Positions 9,261-21,028 of a stretch of DNA of 21,161 bases are shown one piece after another. Source of the DNA: a virus. The notes beneath the pieces were generated by a model. It did not search any database, had not been told where the DNA came from, and saw only the letters and a list, made by a program, of their open reading frames with translations. Numbering within the stretch: position 1 is the stretch's first letter; each line of letters begins with the position of its first letter. The stretch spans positions 1 through 21,161 of IMG/VR virus record IMGVR_UViG_3300044640_000457. One strand, given 5' to 3'. Position numbers and translations under genes: made by a program.

Positions 9261-10846
9261 TGCGCGGTCCGAGGCGAGGGCCTTCCCAGCGATCAGGGTA
9301 TAAGTCAATACCCCAAAACGAAGCTACGGCGCGGACTACTACTGTTCCGGCCCCTGTCGGCGGATGGAATGCAAGGGACTCATTAGCTTCTATGCCTGCC
9401 CTTGATGCTGTGGTTATGGATAACTTTTTTCCGGGAACTTCTGACGTGAGTCTACGCCCAGGCTCAAGTAACTGGCTAACCGGACTCCCCTCAAACGCTC
9501 GTGCGTTTTTACCTTATAACAAGCCGATTGGGGGCACTCTATTTGTTTCCACCAGCACAGGCATCTATAATGCAACTTCCTCAGGCCCAGCGGGTTCAGC
9601 AGTAACTACTTGCACTAATGGGGAATGGAACTCCGTCAGCTTCATCAACACCGCAGGGGCTTTTCTCGTAGCTGTGAATGGGGTAGATAAGCTAAAACTC
9701 TACAATGGAACTTCTTGGACTGACGTAGATGCTGTCTCCACGCCAGCTATTTCGGGGGTTGTGACAAGTAATCTCGAAAACCTCTGCATACACAAAAGGC
9801 GGCTATGGTTCACAGAAAAATCCTCTATGGACCTTTGGTATTTGGCGACTGATGCTATTGGAGGGGCCGCAACTCGGTTCCCTGTCGGACCTTTATTCGC
9901 CCGTGGCGGTAGGGTTGTTGCGGTAGCCAGTTGGACAATCGACGGTGGCAAGGGTGTGGATGACTTGCTCGTTATAGTAAGTTCGGGAGGGGAATTGGCG
10001 GTATACCAAGGCACTGATCCAGCATCCACAGCTAACTTTGCTTTAGTCGGTATTTACTATGTTGGGGAGCCTATTGGTAAAAGGTGCCTGACTCGCTATG
10101 GTGGAGATTTATTGTATCTCTCAAAACAAGGCTGCTTCCCGCTGTCTAAGCAATTACTATCCGCTACCATTGACAGATCACAAGCAATCAGCTTCAAGAT
10201 CGACGGAGCATTTTTAGCCGCTACTTCAGCTTATGGAGGTGTTAGTGGTTGGGAGGCTGTGACTTATCCTGACGCTAATGCTCTTATAGTTAATGTGCCT
10301 ATATCGGCTGATAACGTATCTTATCAATACATAATGAATAATATCACCAAAGCTTGGTGCAGATTTGTCGGTTGGAATGCTCGATGCTTTACGGTATTTA
10401 ACGGCGAATTATACTTTGCCGGCCAGACTGTTGTAAAAAAAGCTTGGGGAGGGTTGAGTGACTCTGGCTTGCCAATAACCGGACAGATTGCACAGGCTTA
10501 TAACAAGCTAGGAGTAGGTGGGCAGAAAAATGTAAGCTTGGCGAGAGCAAACGTAGCGGTTGAGGGACAAGCTACGCTGGCCTTAAGTCTCGACGTAGAT
10601 TATAAAGACAACACATCCTCTACCCAAAATACCTATCTCCCCTCGCTGAATATGAGTCTATGGAACACAAGTTTGTGGGATACAGCTGTCTGGTCTTCGG
10701 GTATAAACTCCGTTGAAAGTAAATGGCTGACTGTTCCGAACGATCTCGGATATTTGTATTCACTGAAGATGCAGCTTGTAACTTCCGCTGCGAGGTTTTC
10801 GTGGACCTCCACCGACTTCGCCGTCAGGCCCGCAGGGATTTTATGA
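9260..10846 (+). CDS. Tail hub / DNA-stabilisation protein, P22 gp10-like propeller (528 aa)
   Basis: The protein probably caps the adaptor and closes the tail channel, as P22 gp10 or T7 gp12 does. After a basic N-terminus (1-30), the segment PAPVGGWNARDSLASM, then AVVMDNFFPGTSDVSLRPG (about 31-70) is a strong signature of this family. The rest is a run of beta-rich repeats with NGVDKLKLYNGTSW, LCIHKRRLWFTEKSSMDLWY and DLLYLSKQGCFPLS segments, in keeping with a multi-blade propeller. The start is inside the previous gene's stop codon and has only weak ribosome binding, so translational coupling is likely. The end overlaps the acetyltransferase start (ATGA). Confidence 0.82.
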   Translation: MRGPRRGPSQRSGYKSIPQNEATARTTTVPAPVGGWNARDSLASMPALDAVVMDNFFPGTSDVSLRPGSSNWLTGLPSNARAFLPYNKPIGGTLFVSTSTGIYNATSSGPAGSAVTTCTNGEWNSVSFINTAGAFLVAVNGVDKLKLYNGTSWTDVDAVSTPAISGVVTSNLENLCIHKRRLWFTEKSSMDLWYLATDAIGGAATRFPVGPLFARGGRVVAVASWTIDGGKGVDDLLVIVSSGGELAVYQGTDPASTANFALVGIYYVGEPIGKRCLTRYGGDLLYLSKQGCFPLSKQLLSATIDRSQAISFKIDGAFLAATSAYGGVSGWEAVTYPDANALIVNVPISADNVSYQYIMNNITKAWCRFVGWNARCFTVFNGELYFAGQTVVKKAWGGLSDSGLPITGQIAQAYNKLGVGGQKNVSLARANVAVEGQATLALSLDVDYKDNTSSTQNTYLPSLNMSLWNTSLWDTAVWSSGINSVESKWLTVPNDLGYLYSLKMQLVTSAARFSWTSTDFAVRPAGIL

Positions 10847-11304
10847 AGATAATAGTTACCGGCTACGACAATATCTTCGGCCCGTGGCTGATGGATAAGG
10901 TTGAAGGCCATTGGATGCTCAATAAAGGCATTACTATCGGACTTTACGATACAGTGCTTGACTCGCCAGTCGCAGCGGTTTATTACGAGGGATGTAATGG
11001 AGCTTCGATCATGCTTCACTGCGCAGGGGAAGGGAAAGCATGGTTAAATAGAGAATTCCTCTGGTATGTTTTTCATTACCCTTTTGAAGAGTTAAAAGTA
11101 AACAAAATCATGTCGCCGGTAGAAAGCGACAATACCGATAGCCGAAGGTTTATAGAGCATATTGGATTTAGTCTAGAGGCCACCCTTCAAGACGCCAGCC
11201 CGAAAGGGGATTTACTGATTTACACGATTGCTAAATCAGACTGTAAATGGCTTAATTTGAAGGATAAGTATCGTGGGCAAGCCAAAGGCTCCAGCAGCGC
11301 CTGA
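10843..11304 (+). CDS. GNAT-family acetyltransferase-like phage protein (153 aa)
   Basis: I choose the ATG at 10843, overlapping the preceding TGA, because AGGGA lies five bases upstream; a longer in-frame version starting at 10723 would overlap the hub gene by over 120 bases and has no support. The C-terminal half has the GNAT end motif, SPVESDNTDSRRFIEHIGFS (91-110), followed by a strand and a hydrophobic ending. GNAT enzymes transfer an acetyl group from acetyl-CoA to amines of proteins or small molecules. The classic CoA pyrophosphate loop is not clear (the AGEGKAWLN segment at 61-69 is the best candidate). Target unknown. Placement between tail hub and ejection genes recurs in podoviruses, suggesting modification of a virion or host protein. 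Confidence 0.68.
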   Translation: MKIIVTGYDNIFGPWLMDKVEGHWMLNKGITIGLYDTVLDSPVAAVYYEGCNGASIMLHCAGEGKAWLNREFLWYVFHYPFEELKVNKIMSPVESDNTDSRRFIEHIGFSLEATLQDASPKGDLLIYTIAKSDCKWLNLKDKYRGQAKGSSSA

Positions 11305-12568: not shown

Positions 12569-13894
12569 ATGCTTAAAGATAATGAAACTCCTACCCTAGC
12601 GAATAAAGGGCAAACTCCTTACATCCCTACAGGGTATGAAAGCCTGCAAGGCAGCGTTGCCCGCAAACGTCGTATTGGAGAAGCCCTCATGCAGCAAGGT
12701 CTAGCAGGACCGCAGGGCGATGTTCGGTCGTGGGCACAGCTTCTCGGCAGCCTCGCGCAAACATGGGCAGGTAAGTCGATACAGAAAGATGCTGATAAGG
12801 AAGAAGCTAGTATTCAAGAGCAGATAAAACAAGAAGTCACTAGAGCCAATCAGGGGTTTGAAGCCGACCTTGCAGCGGGGTTGGAACCTGCACAGCTTGT
12901 CCAGAAATGGGGAAGCAATCAGTGGTTGAGAGCTAGACTCGATCCTTATGAGAAAGCACTTGGAGAAGGGCTGAAGAATAAACAAGAATTCAATACTCCG
13001 GTTGAGATGCTCGGAGCAGACGGTAAGCCTGTTACTGTTCAAACAAATAAGGCAGGGGACATCCGTCCGGCGACTGGAGGCTTTCAACTCCCTCCTGTTA
13101 TTACCAATGTTAATGATGTGGCTGTGGCGCTGCAAAGACAGACTCCGGGCACTGTTCTACCACAGAACCTTACCGAGTCCGTCATTCGCGGTCCGGATGG
13201 TAAGCCTGTAGTTAACCCCGAGGCACTCTCGGCAAAAGTCAAAGTCGCGGCTGCTGGCGCACCGAACTCTCAAGTTACGGTTAATACCGGCAAAGAGCTC
13301 GGCGCTGAAATGGCGACAATGCTGTCGACGAGTTTTGGGCAGGCAGAAGGTGCGATCTCTACCCTCGGGGCTACTGACCGAATAGAAGCTGCCTTGAATA
13401 CCGGAAAGGCCCGGACTGGTCCTTGGACCGGCTGGAAGAATTACGTAGAGAAAGCCTTTGGAATTAACGCGGAAGGCGTGGCACAGCGTCGAGCGATTGA
13501 GCAGGGTATAGCGCAGCTTGGTATTGACGCTAGAAAGGTTCTCGAAGGTCAAGGTGCTGTGTCTAACTCCGAAGCTACAGCTGTGGAAAAAGCCTACTCT
13601 GGCAATATTGATGAGATGACGGAAGGTGAAATTCGCATAGTCATTGACGTAGCGCGGAGAGGGGCTAAGTCTAAAGTCGATGCGCATAATCGGCAACTTG
13701 AAGCCGCTAGTCGTATTCCCGGAGCGGGAGACTTTATCCCGTCCTTCGAGCTTCCGGAAAAGTATCGCCAGCGGAAAGTTGTTCCGACGAAGCGGACAGA
13801 CTCCTCGCCAGCGCGAACGGGCCTGCCTCCGAAAGGGGCAACATTGACGTCGAAGTATTCTAAGCTTCTCCCACCACCTAGAGGGAGTCAATAA
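12569..13894 (+). CDS. Probable internal virion / ejection protein 2 (441 aa)
   Basis: No named domain is certain. The N-terminus has SLQGSVARKRRIGEALMQQG and a GDVRSWAQLLGSLAQTWAGK segment (about 26-68), then charged helix (69-130), a middle with GADGKPVTVQTNKAGDIRPA, and a helical C-terminal half with ARKVLEGQGAVSNSEATAVE, a short motif I have the impression of seeing in other phage virion proteins. The last 50 residues are basic and proline-rich. Mostly helical, soluble and lacking a signal peptide, it suits a protein packaged inside the head. Position between two other ejection candidates supports the call. GGGGGAAG lies upstream of the ATG, six bases after the previous stop; its own stop overlaps the next start (TAATG at 13892-13896). 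Confidence 0.55.
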   Translation: MLKDNETPTLANKGQTPYIPTGYESLQGSVARKRRIGEALMQQGLAGPQGDVRSWAQLLGSLAQTWAGKSIQKDADKEEASIQEQIKQEVTRANQGFEADLAAGLEPAQLVQKWGSNQWLRARLDPYEKALGEGLKNKQEFNTPVEMLGADGKPVTVQTNKAGDIRPATGGFQLPPVITNVNDVAVALQRQTPGTVLPQNLTESVIRGPDGKPVVNPEALSAKVKVAAAGAPNSQVTVNTGKELGAEMATMLSTSFGQAEGAISTLGATDRIEAALNTGKARTGPWTGWKNYVEKAFGINAEGVAQRRAIEQGIAQLGIDARKVLEGQGAVSNSEATAVEKAYSGNIDEMTEGEIRIVIDVARRGAKSKVDAHNRQLEAASRIPGAGDFIPSFELPEKYRQRKVVPTKRTDSSPARTGLPPKGATLTSKYSKLLPPPRGSQ

Positions 13895-16248
13895 TGTTGT
13901 TATCGCCTACAGCCAATGGCCCTGCCGCGTGGCAATCTGGCCCTATTGAAGCTTCTGTCGTGGAGGAAAACCTTCGCAAGATGGCTACGATTGAGGACCA
14001 GAATGCCTATCTAGAATCCCTTCCACCAGAAGCTGTGGAGGGTTGGGCGTCATGGAAGGCTTCAGTCGGCCAGACTGAGGGAGTTCCGGCTGACCAGGCT
14101 CCACCAGTGTTTGAAGGGACTAATGTTTCTAGACTAGCGCCTCGACGGATGCCGTATATCGAGGCTAATCAAGCTGTTGCTGATGGGCTTGAGTCTACGG
14201 TAGACCCTCAACAGCTTAATCAGATGAAATCCATGCAAGCTGCGGCAGATGCAGCTAGCGGTAAACCTTCGAAAGAGCCGGAAGGACTTCCAAGCAAGGG
14301 ATTGCTCGACAACGACCTTGGAATGTATCTTCGTGCAGCCGCCACAGGTGCTACGGCTTTGCCTGCGCTGCCTATTAACCTGTTCACGAGTATGCTGCCC
14401 TTCGGCGGGGATGGGGATGCCGTGGGGGCTATTATAGATCAAACAGGGGCTAAAAGGCCTCAGACCAGAGATGAGCGGATAATGTCCGACATTATCGCAG
14501 GGGTTGCGGGTTCGGGGGCGGTTATAGGGGGCGGAAAAGCTCTTGGCAGTTTAGGCTTCAAGGGAGCAGAAAAAAGCCTTGTCGGCAGTCCGGTCTCGCA
14601 GCTTATCGGTGGAGGCACTGGAGCGGCTGCGGCAGGGACTGTTCGGGAAGAAGGCGGAAGCCAGACCGAGCAGATTATTGCAGCTTTGCTCGCGGGCGGC
14701 ATACCTGCAGGAGCCTCGATGGCGAATAGAGCCGCTTTTACGCGAGGGGTTGATAGACCAGCTATGCAAGAGCGTATGGCTAATTTTGAAGCTGCGGGAA
14801 CTACTCCAACGATCGGACAACTCACTGGCGGGGATAAGGCCCAAGGAACCGAGGCGTTCCTAGCCCAGTTCTACGGCTCAAGTCCGGTGATTAAAAGCCG
14901 ACTTGCCGCGCAGGAGGAAGCAGTTCTTGGCGCTAACCAAAAGGTCGCGGACAGTCTCGCGCCGCTTGACCTCGCAACGGGCGAACCAGTCCGAATGTCT
15001 AAGGCAGAGCTTAATAATCTTATTGAAAATACTTGGAATAACTCCGGCAAGAAAGCCATTAGCCAGACCCGAACGGACTTTGCGAACAACTTAGCGGATA
15101 AAGTTAGCCCCCGCGCGGGCGTAGGTATGAGTAGTTTTCAGGATATTACAGATGAGCTTACGGCTATAGACCCCGGAGCCAAGAACTTATCAAAAAATCC
15201 TGTATTTAATCCGAATTTGAAGCAGTTTACAGAACTTAAAAATGACTTGAAAAAAGACCTTGCCGCAAGTATAAAATTACAGATCGCTGGCGGCGTTCCC
15301 CTAGAACTTGCAAAAGGCAAACTTCCTTTTGAGGCTGTTAGGAAACTTAAAACCCAACTGGGTGCTCAGATGGACAATTCAACTTTTGGGGCACAGAACG
15401 TCTCTGAGGCGGAGCAGAGAAGGCTTTTCGGCGCTATTGCAGAGGATATTAAGGCCTTCATTAAAACGCAAGGTGTTGACGCTGAAGCAGCTTTTAATGA
15501 TTGGAATAAGTGGGAAATTAACTATCATAAAGAAGCGGCTGCCTTGCGATCCGTCTTAGGCAAGAATGGCGGCCGCGACAAGGTATACAAAGCCGCTTTT
15601 GCTGGAGTGAATGAAGGTCCTACAATTATTAAATCGGTCTATAACAACCTTGACAAGGGTGCTAGAGATGCTTTAACTAGCGCTTGGCTTTCCAGGGCTA
15701 TGAAAGTTGTGAATAAAAGCGATCCGGATGAGACTAGCCTTGGCCAAATGTTTGGCAATTATCGCAATATGAGTGATGAAGCTAAGGAAGTTATGTTTGC
15801 GCCGGAAGTGCGGGAGCAGCTTGATAAGCTAAACTCTGCTGCACGGACCATCCTGAAATCGGAAAAAGAATTTGGAATGAAGGCCGGAGGACGCTCCGGA
15901 AGTCTGGGAGGTCAAGGGCCTATTTACGCAGGAGGGAGTCTAATCTCGTCTGGAATTGGACTTGCCTCTGGGACTACAAGTCTTGCTGCGGGTGCGGAGC
16001 CTGCAACAGCCCTCTTTAACACTCTTGCGGCAATCGCAGGAACGGCTGTGGGCGCAAACATCCTCGCCCGTTACATGACCAACCCTAAGACAGTCCGCTG
16101 GATGGCGTCTAACGCAAAACTGCCTCCCGCCGCCCTGCCTATCGCAATCAACCTTCTAGGCCAAGAAGCCCGCAAATCACAAGACCCTGATATGATCGAA
16201 TTTGCAAGGCTCATGGAAGAAGCCTCACAAGATAACGGAGAAGAATAA
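13894..16248 (+). CDS. Large membrane-active ejection protein, P22 gp16/gp20-type role (784 aa)
   Basis: This is the largest protein here. It has several Gly/Ala-rich hydrophobic stretches able to enter membranes: about residues 146-170, 198-222, 235-250 and 259-275, and a further pair near the C-terminus, about 680-700 and 708-727. Between them is a long soluble helical region (about 285-650) with FGNYRNMSDEAKEVMFAP, a motif I believe recurs in phage ejection proteins. No lytic transglycosylase or peptidase motif is visible. In P22-like and T7-like phages the third of three such genes makes part of the trans-envelope conduit; that role is inferred from size, membrane segments and order. The stop is followed by the fibre gene in a TAATG overlap. 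Confidence 0.7.
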   Translation: MLLSPTANGPAAWQSGPIEASVVEENLRKMATIEDQNAYLESLPPEAVEGWASWKASVGQTEGVPADQAPPVFEGTNVSRLAPRRMPYIEANQAVADGLESTVDPQQLNQMKSMQAAADAASGKPSKEPEGLPSKGLLDNDLGMYLRAAATGATALPALPINLFTSMLPFGGDGDAVGAIIDQTGAKRPQTRDERIMSDIIAGVAGSGAVIGGGKALGSLGFKGAEKSLVGSPVSQLIGGGTGAAAAGTVREEGGSQTEQIIAALLAGGIPAGASMANRAAFTRGVDRPAMQERMANFEAAGTTPTIGQLTGGDKAQGTEAFLAQFYGSSPVIKSRLAAQEEAVLGANQKVADSLAPLDLATGEPVRMSKAELNNLIENTWNNSGKKAISQTRTDFANNLADKVSPRAGVGMSSFQDITDELTAIDPGAKNLSKNPVFNPNLKQFTELKNDLKKDLAASIKLQIAGGVPLELAKGKLPFEAVRKLKTQLGAQMDNSTFGAQNVSEAEQRRLFGAIAEDIKAFIKTQGVDAEAAFNDWNKWEINYHKEAAALRSVLGKNGGRDKVYKAAFAGVNEGPTIIKSVYNNLDKGARDALTSAWLSRAMKVVNKSDPDETSLGQMFGNYRNMSDEAKEVMFAPEVREQLDKLNSAARTILKSEKEFGMKAGGRSGSLGGQGPIYAGGSLISSGIGLASGTTSLAAGAEPATALFNTLAAIAGTAVGANILARYMTNPKTVRWMASNAKLPPAALPIAINLLGQEARKSQDPDMIEFARLMEEASQDNGEE

Positions 16249-19063: not shown

Positions 19064-19333
19064 ATGCCGACTCCAGTAACAGAAAGCTATACACCACTCC
19101 CCCTTGCGATTAATTTTGATGGGGCTGTCTCTAGCGCAAGTTGCACTCTAGCCGGATTTACTTGCGTAATTTCGGGAAGTTTGACTTTGAGGGACAGGGC
19201 CGCAGGGTCGGTGTTCGTGGACGCTCTTCCGGTCAGTGCTGGAGTGTATCATCCTTTACCTTATTCCATGCCGAATGGTGCGTATGTAACTCTTACCGGA
19301 GGGGCTAAGGGCACGATTGCGTGGACAAGTTAA
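19064..19333 (+). CDS. Small beta-rich phage protein of unknown function (89 aa)
   Basis: No certain family. The translation is a compact beta pattern beginning TESYTPLPLAINFDGAV, with a LTLRDRAAGSVFVDAL strand pair in the middle and ending GAYVTLTGGAKGTIAWTS. It has its own good ribosome binding site (AAGGA at 19051-19055). Its stop codon is immediately followed, in the same frame, by the ATG of the large downstream gene. It could be a stand-alone fibre-tip or assembly protein; a fused product by stop readthrough is conceivable but unsupported. Confidence 0.65.
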   Translation: MPTPVTESYTPLPLAINFDGAVSSASCTLAGFTCVISGSLTLRDRAAGSVFVDALPVSAGVYHPLPYSMPNGAYVTLTGGAKGTIAWTS

Positions 19334-21028
19334 ATGTTGTTGCTTTTGCGTCTACAGACGAGAGCGAGTCCGCCGGTCAACACCGCGCTTCCCGTAATTT
19401 CGCAGACTGGTTCGGTGCTATCGGTGACAACGGGCACATGGACGGGCGATGCGCCGATTGCGTATGCGTATCAGTTCACGCGCAACGGAACGCCTATTAG
19501 CGGCGCGACGGCTTCAACTTACACCATCCCGGACGCTGACTTGAACGCCTTGTTTGGCTGTATTGTCACGGCGACAAATGTGCACGGCAATGCCAGCGCG
19601 GCGGCGGCGCTTCTTTATGTTGGCGTGATGGATGTATTGTCCGTGGCTCCAGCGGTCAATTATGAGTTGCGCCGTGAAAGCCGCAGCTACACTGGCCTCA
19701 ATAAACGTGTGCGTCGTTCGAGTGACAATGCGGAAGCCAATTTCGGCTTTGCTACGGCAGCGCAAACACGCACGAACCTTGCGGCGATTCCGATTAACGA
19801 TAATAGTGGCAGCACGATTTCCGGCGTCACGAGGACGACGATTGGCACGGGCACCGAGTTTGGGCAGCCGTATATTGATGTTCGCTGGCAAGGCACGGCT
19901 GGTGGTGCTGGGGCCTTACAGTTTATTCACGGCGCAATAAACGTTCCGTTTAACCCGGCAATTCACGCGCCTGCTACGCCGGGGCTAACTTATACGACTT
20001 CGGTTGGGTTTCGCTTAGTAAGCGGGACAGCACCAGTTGGAACACCTACGCTCCGGGCTATGATGATAACTAATGGCGGTAGCTTTACGTCCGGCACATC
20101 CCGCGCGATTTCAAACCCAACCGCAACATTACAGAGAAACGCATCAGTAGATATTGCTACGGCTAATACGGCCTATATCGCGCCTAACATTAATTTTCCA
20201 GTCGGCAATGGCGAGGTCGTTGATTTCACCGTGCGCTTTTACGCCGCCAATGTCGAACTTGGTGTTGGCAATGCGCGCCCGCTTTTGCAGCGCAATGTTC
20301 CGGAAACGATTGCCGATATTGGCGAACTTGACGCCGAGGCGCTGCTTAATTTTGTCGGTAATGGCAACGGCTTTATCACCATTTTGCATGACAAAAGCGG
20401 CAATGGTCGCAATGCCACGCAAACGACGCCAGCTAATCAGCCGCGCATTGTCAGCAATGGGGCGATGATAACTGCGGGCGGAAAGCCTGCCATATTGTTT
20501 GATGGCGTGGATGATTATTTAGCTGCCCCTGTTCCGCTTATTGACACAACGCACAGTCTGTTTGCTCTATTCACACCGACGATTGAAAATGTAACCGGGT
20601 CTTTGTTTGGGCAGTGGTCTGCTGGCCAAACTGGCCGTTTTACAATTCTTGTAAACCAAATTTCAAGCGGAGTTGCGTCGGCTGGGTTTTTGAACCTATT
20701 CAACTCTTCAGCGACGCAAGGCGGAGGCAGTGGTGGTCTCGCCACAGAGGTTGCTATTTCAAATACACCCACTTTAATCACGTCTATATCAACCACCGGA
20801 AGCGAGCAGTGGAAACTGTTTAAGAACGGCGCGGAATGGGATAGCGCAACAATTACGTCCGTCTTTACGGGGGTCAATAGCGCGATAGGTTCGTTGAATG
20901 GACTTGGATCATCGTTACCATTTGACGGCACTTTTTCAGGATTGACTTCGTTCCCCTCCGTCCTTTCCACCGACCGCCAAACCCTTGAGCGCAACCGTGG
21001 CGCTTATTACGGCATACCAATCACATAG
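19334..21028 (+). CDS. Modular receptor-binding candidate: Ig-like, split arabinofuranosidase-B-like and LamG-like domains (564 aa)
   Basis: Residues about 14-96 are an Ig-like domain (PVNTALPVISQTGSVLS, then YQFTRNGTPISGATASTYTI). Then comes YELRRESRSYTGLNKRVRRS (110-129), the opening of the arabinofuranosidase-B-type sugar-recognition/catalytic module common in phage tail proteins. That module breaks off after DNAEANFGF and resumes at IADIGELDAEALLNFVGNGN (326-345) and LHDKSGNGRNATQTTPANQP (351-370). The insert, about 141-328, is beta-rich and contains EFGQPYIDVRWQGTA. A LamG/jelly-roll end follows (397-564, closing RQTLERNRGAYYGIPIT). It probably binds or trims surface glycan. The usual WYDQSGNG wording is changed to LHDKSGNG, so catalysis is doubtful. 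The ATG touches the previous stop and lacks a near ribosome binding site; GCG/GGC codons are frequent, unlike most neighbours. Confidence 0.7.
   Translation: MLLLLRLQTRASPPVNTALPVISQTGSVLSVTTGTWTGDAPIAYAYQFTRNGTPISGATASTYTIPDADLNALFGCIVTATNVHGNASAAAALLYVGVMDVLSVAPAVNYELRRESRSYTGLNKRVRRSSDNAEANFGFATAAQTRTNLAAIPINDNSGSTISGVTRTTIGTGTEFGQPYIDVRWQGTAGGAGALQFIHGAINVPFNPAIHAPATPGLTYTTSVGFRLVSGTAPVGTPTLRAMMITNGGSFTSGTSRAISNPTATLQRNASVDIATANTAYIAPNINFPVGNGEVVDFTVRFYAANVELGVGNARPLLQRNVPETIADIGELDAEALLNFVGNGNGFITILHDKSGNGRNATQTTPANQPRIVSNGAMITAGGKPAILFDGVDDYLAAPVPLIDTTHSLFALFTPTIENVTGSLFGQWSAGQTGRFTILVNQISSGVASAGFLNLFNSSATQGGGSGGLATEVAISNTPTLITSISTTGSEQWKLFKNGAEWDSATITSVFTGVNSAIGSLNGLGSSLPFDGTFSGLTSFPSVLSTDRQTLERNRGAYYGIPIT

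Follow-up and report, generated by a model that had tools for sequence, protein, structure and literature searches.

An AbfB-like domain split by a nested module is encoded on the plus strand at 19334–21028 of the window, the 21,161-base stretch analysed here (IMG/VR virus record IMGVR_UViG_3300044640_000457), which derives from an uncultivated freshwater phage. The 564-residue product consists of an Ig-like domain followed by the interrupted domain. It is probably a non-catalytic virion-surface adhesin, most likely tail-associated, in which a lectin-type scaffold derived from GH54/AbfB carries a nested CBM-type module. We favour this reading because of an uninterrupted close relative (locus L003), the 221 uninterrupted copies of the domain, the PF09206 and 1WD3 matches of the scaffold, and the AlphaFold2 and Foldseek results. 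The adhesin function is proposed on the basis of tail fiber, minor tail and tailspike relatives, of gp49 of Azospirillum phage Cd and of gene position. The resemblance of the Ig-like part to head decoration proteins and the filing of PHROG 10356 under head and packaging were counted against this reading.

The interrupted gene and its uninterrupted relatives

The window encodes a terminase, a portal protein, a major head protein, an amidase, a tail fibre with an S74 chaperone, an endolysin and a holin. The best match in a search with the portal protein was 40%, and no close cultured relative was found. The ORF at 19334–21028 is a real gene, the last complete one in the window. Its Ig-like domain spans residues 14–92 (19373–19609, plus strand, as are all parts of the gene). 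The first part of the AbfB-like domain covers residues 98–139 (19625–19750) and is recognized by its motifs, SYTG at residues 118–121 and RVRRSSDNAE at 125–134, the latter running on to a GF pair. The second part, defined by alignment, profiles and the structural model, covers residues 329–564 (20318–21025) and contains IGELD (329–333), LHDKSGNG (351–358) and QPRIV (369–373). Between the two parts, alignment with relatives delimits an insert of 189 residues, 140–328 (19751–20317), which bears the motif EFGQPYIDVRWQGTA at residues 175–189. The preliminary description had proposed an AbfB-like domain split by about 190 residues at roughly 141–328, and this is borne out with a shift of one residue at the start. 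Pfam matches of the 564-residue protein to DUF1202, and of neighbouring genes to SPV1_VP10 and CTP_transf_1, were below cut-off and were discarded.

The nearest uninterrupted relative, L003, shares 85.0% DNA identity with window positions 19369–19750 and 85.2% with 20310–21028. The matching pieces are contiguous in L003 (3006–3390 and 3389–4110). Because both flanks, each about 85% identical, lie side by side in this locus, the interruption is more than a chance juxtaposition. A scan of viral contigs yielded 57 loci, in about 30 of which the flanks corresponding to residues 139 and 329 are joined without an insert. In another, automatic scan some apparent slot-1 inserts were tandem copies misread by the aligner, and the counts that follow come from stricter scans. 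Among 253 non-redundant ORFs with an AbfB-like domain, the full uninterrupted copies number 221, nested ones included. A further scan used as its key only the block that precedes the slot and hence was unbiased by downstream sequence. Of the 102 units it returned, 66 continued directly to the YDQ motif under a strict criterion; those with slot 2 occupied formed the main other class, and the module of the window protein was present in only 3. In matches to cultured phages, the alignments across the insertion site are single unbroken pieces. The opening and closing motifs are thus usually close together, as had been supposed, and the uninterrupted form, whose existence had been put forward as a check, predominates.

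These data bear on whether the two motif blocks are instead two small domains strung one after the other, with the beta-rich segment as a mere stretch between them. The packing of the halves against each other is deduced from model confidence and homology, which leaves some room for this explanation. We nevertheless consider it hardly credible, given the contiguous AbfB homology, the empty allele of L003 and the 221 uninterrupted copies. Moreover, L005, L007 and L016 contain duplications in which the two blocks stay together as a unit, and the 42-residue first part is modelled with high confidence once the alignment has sufficient depth for the second half to be modelled.

The GH54-related scaffold and its nested module

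The Pfam family PF09206 (ArabFuran-catal) is matched by all 13 uninterrupted members tested, and wherever positions were printed the matches cross the insertion site unbroken. In L003 the match is one continuous stretch across the insertion point, scoring 30 bits against a cut-off of 25. The 564-residue window protein gave no PF09206 match in the Pfam scan, and a standard domain search misses it because the insert breaks the match. A profile built from 67 diverse uninterrupted phage copies aligns without a break to residues 16–87 of the fungal AbfB 1WD3 (E = 3.3e-9). With the scaffold model as query, Foldseek listed GH54 AbfB structures first (1WD3, E = 4.4e-7, probability 1.00), in agreement with a beta-sandwich fold; the tailspike of Cyanopodophage Pan3 was also listed (E = 3.3e-4). 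The kinship of the scaffold to the AbfB catalytic fold, which the preliminary description had recognized from the motifs, therefore stands.

The scaffold resembles the GH54 catalytic domain (PF09206; 1WD3) in its fold and, over the first 70 residues or so, by homology that runs across the insertion site. It differs from AbfB in that the window copy is interrupted, in that similarity fades after residue ~87, and in that the window protein shows neither a sign of the catalytic acids nor the C-terminal CBM42 typical of AbfB. Glu221 is the catalytic nucleophile of GH54 enzymes. This residue is named in PDB entry 6SXR, an E221Q mutant. The AbfB region that aligns with the phage family stops at residue 87, ahead of the Glu221 region, and the active site therefore cannot be mapped by sequence. 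Beyond YDQ, one second-half acid is near-invariant among the 67 phage copies, a Glu conserved in 93–96%, and this position is Gly536 in the window protein.

An active, depolymerase-like glycoside hydrolase guided by its nested CBM to a substrate on the host surface would fit the relationship of the scaffold to a catalytic domain and the annotation of some phage relatives as alpha-L-arabinofuranosidases, although these names were transferred by similarity. We regard such an enzyme as quite improbable: the similarity to AbfB ends before the Glu221 region, the only near-invariant second-half acid is replaced in the window protein, and the second half varies strongly among relatives. Enzyme activity of the window protein thus appears unlikely from its sequence, since the single near-invariant acid of the phage copies is a glycine there. 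The earlier suggestion that the domain was once catalytic finds no support for the protein's own line, as the second half shows no pair of conserved acids across the phage family and Gly536 occupies the position of the near-invariant Glu.

The insert belongs to a family, termed A5, with the signature GTGTEFGQPYIDVRWQGT. Besides the window, 18 viral contigs and a single bacterial genome, that of Bacteroidetes bacterium UKL13-3, were found to carry members, whose identity to the window's copy is 46–97% in the aligned part of the insert. Every strong match directly follows the DxGF strand, that is, lies in slot 1. More distant relatives are found elsewhere, in a linear arrangement in gp49 of Azospirillum phage Cd and, in L243, at another slot. 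Sequence searches of Pfam, PHROG and PDB returned no match for the family and no membership of a named CBM family. Its predicted all-beta structure was placed by Foldseek near CBM4 (1GUI, 9.1e-7), CBM16 (2ZEX, 2.8e-6) and CBM22 (4XUP, 1.1e-5), in agreement with a jelly-roll beta-sandwich, and near tailspike TSP4 of CBA120 (1.1e-6). The TM scores against the CBM4, CBM16 and CBM22 structures are moderate, 0.45–0.50 of the target. The resemblance to carbohydrate-binding modules suspected from the sequence is thus found at the level of fold and extends to phage tailspike domains. Both the insert and the scaffold may bind carbohydrate; sugar-binding residues were not recognized in the insert.

The UKL13-3 protein (L157:4779–8648; CP012155.1) has the same scaffold and, in the same slot, an A5 insert with 60% identity to that of the window. 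Unlike the window protein it is bacterial, begins with an apparent signal peptide and carries a T9SS sorting domain (PF18962, Por_Secre_tail, E = 4.6e-11). The surrounding 10.6 kb showed no phage genes. The occurrence of the same architecture in this secreted protein suggests exchange between phages and bacteria. Transposase-like remnants lie upstream of the bacterial gene.

When the full-length protein was modelled by AlphaFold2 from 32 sequences, the result was confident for the insert only, with a pLDDT of 50 elsewhere. With residues 91–564 and an alignment of 90 sequences, the mean pLDDT rose to 86.5 (pTM 0.78). The first part of the scaffold then reached mostly 95–97 and the second half mostly exceeded 80, with weaker loops at 54–74. 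The insert is predicted as a separate all-beta unit between low-confidence linkers at about residues 141–160 and 311–320 (pLDDT ~53–75). Structure prediction, proposed earlier as a check, thus gives two confident halves with the insert set apart from them. Model confidence and homology together suggest that the scaffold halves pack against each other.

In the arrangement we propose, the GH54/AbfB-related, concanavalin-like beta-sandwich would serve as a scaffold, probably a lectin rather than an enzyme. A complete jelly-roll module of carbohydrate-binding type would have been inserted in the loop that follows the RVRRSSDNAExxxGF strand. The two sequence halves would still build one scaffold, from which a pair of linkers would hold the module outwards; the module may add avidity or alter the specificity for host-surface glycans.

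Slots, self-nesting and exchange of segments

The phage AbfB-like domain accepts modules at three loop slots, after profile positions ~47, 62 and 74, all within the conserved N-terminal 80 residues. Slot 2 lies between LLAFVG and NGFVTTWYDQ. Its occupants in relatives include modules of the NLLxRSEEF type (A4), which match PHROG tail proteins and have no detectable sequence similarity to the insert. As hhalign found no similarity between the A5 and A4 families, a common origin is not claimed. Slots 1 and 2 are both filled in L042, L044 and L045. All three are filled in L047:2902–5364 and L048, where one AbfB-like domain holds three modules in a protein of 821 residues.

In five loci, slot 2 is occupied by a complete copy of the AbfB-like domain itself, always at profile position 62/63 (L193:3899–5605, L183:3710–5326, L156:1–2391, L242:2887–4587 and L249:178–2625). 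The order is that of an outer N-terminal part up to position 62, a full copy, and the outer remainder from positions 60–64, with linkers of 0–9 residues. The inner copy carries a module of its own in L258:2878–6144 and L056:1044–3176. In L243:2926–5175, an inner copy occupies slot 2, and slot 3 holds a module related to the insert of the window protein. Judging from this order of parts, the self-nested proteins would be nested in three dimensions as well. In L134, L087 and L149, AbfB-like domains are found in each of several neighbouring genes of the same phage, and a single protein can contain tandem copies.

Exchange also affects the second half of the domain. The window protein and L002 share 97% of the insert and just 36% of the last ~190 residues. 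The latter are 79–84% shared with the uninterrupted L006, L007, L008 and L039. At the DNA level, identity to L002 is 98.0% over 19649–20466, after which the two sequences are unmatched until the 3′ end. The insert-bearing N-terminal part and the second half are therefore exchanged independently of each other, and the alignments place the change-over near the conserved GNGRNATQ...QPxIV stretch. The preliminary description had noted that the usual WYDQSGNG is altered to LHDKSGNG (20384–20407, plus strand). The variant is present but is not tied to the insert. LHDKSGNG is common to the window, L001, L002, L064 and also L004, which lacks a slot-1 insert, whereas the insert-bearing L062, L065 and L066 keep WYDQ. 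L003, without an insert, has LYDK. We therefore rejected LHDK as a consequence of insertion, its distribution following lineage rather than insert.

These observations raise the possibility, which we hold about evenly balanced, that the AbfB-like domain of phages serves generally as a frame for insertions. Its three slots would repeatedly take modules of carbohydrate-binding type, slot 2 would also take whole copies of the domain to give matryoshka proteins of two to three levels, and the second half would be swapped independently. With such a frame, adhesins could be diversified, in phages and in at least one Bacteroidetes surface protein, while their termini stay undisturbed. The recurrent slots and the self-nested copies are the most interesting part of the analysis and were found outside the window. 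The natural empty, single, double, triple and self-nested alleles form a series with which the effect of nested modules on surface recognition could be tested.

Virion location and comparison with known systems

The Ig-like part matches PHROG 26223 over residues 14–91 and the Hoc-like PHROG 2973; Ig matches of this kind occur in many phages. Its best match in PDB is a tail protein (9c2d, E = 3.4e-6, residues 28–107), with further resemblance to head decoration proteins. The second half matches PHROG 10356, a family filed under head and packaging. A capsid-surface adhesin, whose module would make the particle sticky towards surfaces or mucus-like glycans rather than choose a receptor, would account for this filing and for the Hoc-like and decoration-protein matches. 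Such a location seems unlikely to us, though less so than an enzymatic role. The best PDB match of the Ig-like part points to the tail, most relatives of the scaffold are minor tail, tail or tailspike proteins, and the gene sits after the tail-fibre and lysis genes. Viral structure matches of the scaffold are named tail fiber and minor tail protein, and its cultured relatives are annotated as minor tail or virion structural proteins. With these relatives and this gene position, a receptor-binding role for the tail-associated adhesin is plausible. Both the location on the virion and the effect of the module, as added avidity or altered specificity, are deduced from such comparisons.

Three other genes of the window deserve mention. 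Directly upstream, 19064–19333 encodes an 89-residue beta-type protein. An ORF with 36% identity to it lies ahead of the same gene in L001 and L162, and the gene pair therefore travels together. The 784-residue protein encoded at 13894–16248, just before the S74 tail fibre, had no PHROG and no significant Pfam match. An Acyl-CoA N-acyltransferase-like gene (10723–11304, PHROG 4470) lies among the structural genes and overlaps the end of the PHROG 5107 'amidase'.

Shuffling of fragments in phage proteins of host interaction is well described (PMC10684548). Nesting within an AbfB-like phage domain was not found in the literature covered, to which most subscription journals did not belong. In gp49, a tail protein of Azospirillum phage Cd, the distant insert relative GSGTEDGIPYVDVRFSGT (tblastn 3e-3, profile 37 bits) adjoins an NLL-type module. 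Unlike in the window protein, the arrangement there is linear, and the AbfB scaffold was not detected in gp49.

The closest precedent is provided by the evolved Dits (evoDit) of lactococcal skunaviruses, in which a carbohydrate-binding insert within the protein has been demonstrated to allow adsorption to EPS-bearing hosts (PMC10688798). By analogy, the nested module of the window protein would, on our best reading, work in the same way. The two systems are alike in that a module of similar size (168 residues in one evoDit group; PMC10688798) lies inside a phage protein, and in that an uninterrupted form aligns with both ends, as L003 does for the window protein. They differ in the protein interrupted, which is the distal tail protein in evoDit and here an AbfB-like domain whose relatives have three slots and self-nesting; Pfam and PHROG scans gave no Dit match for the window protein. 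What is new with respect to the evolved Dits is nesting at defined slots in a large, mostly unannotated family of phage domains related to glycoside hydrolases.
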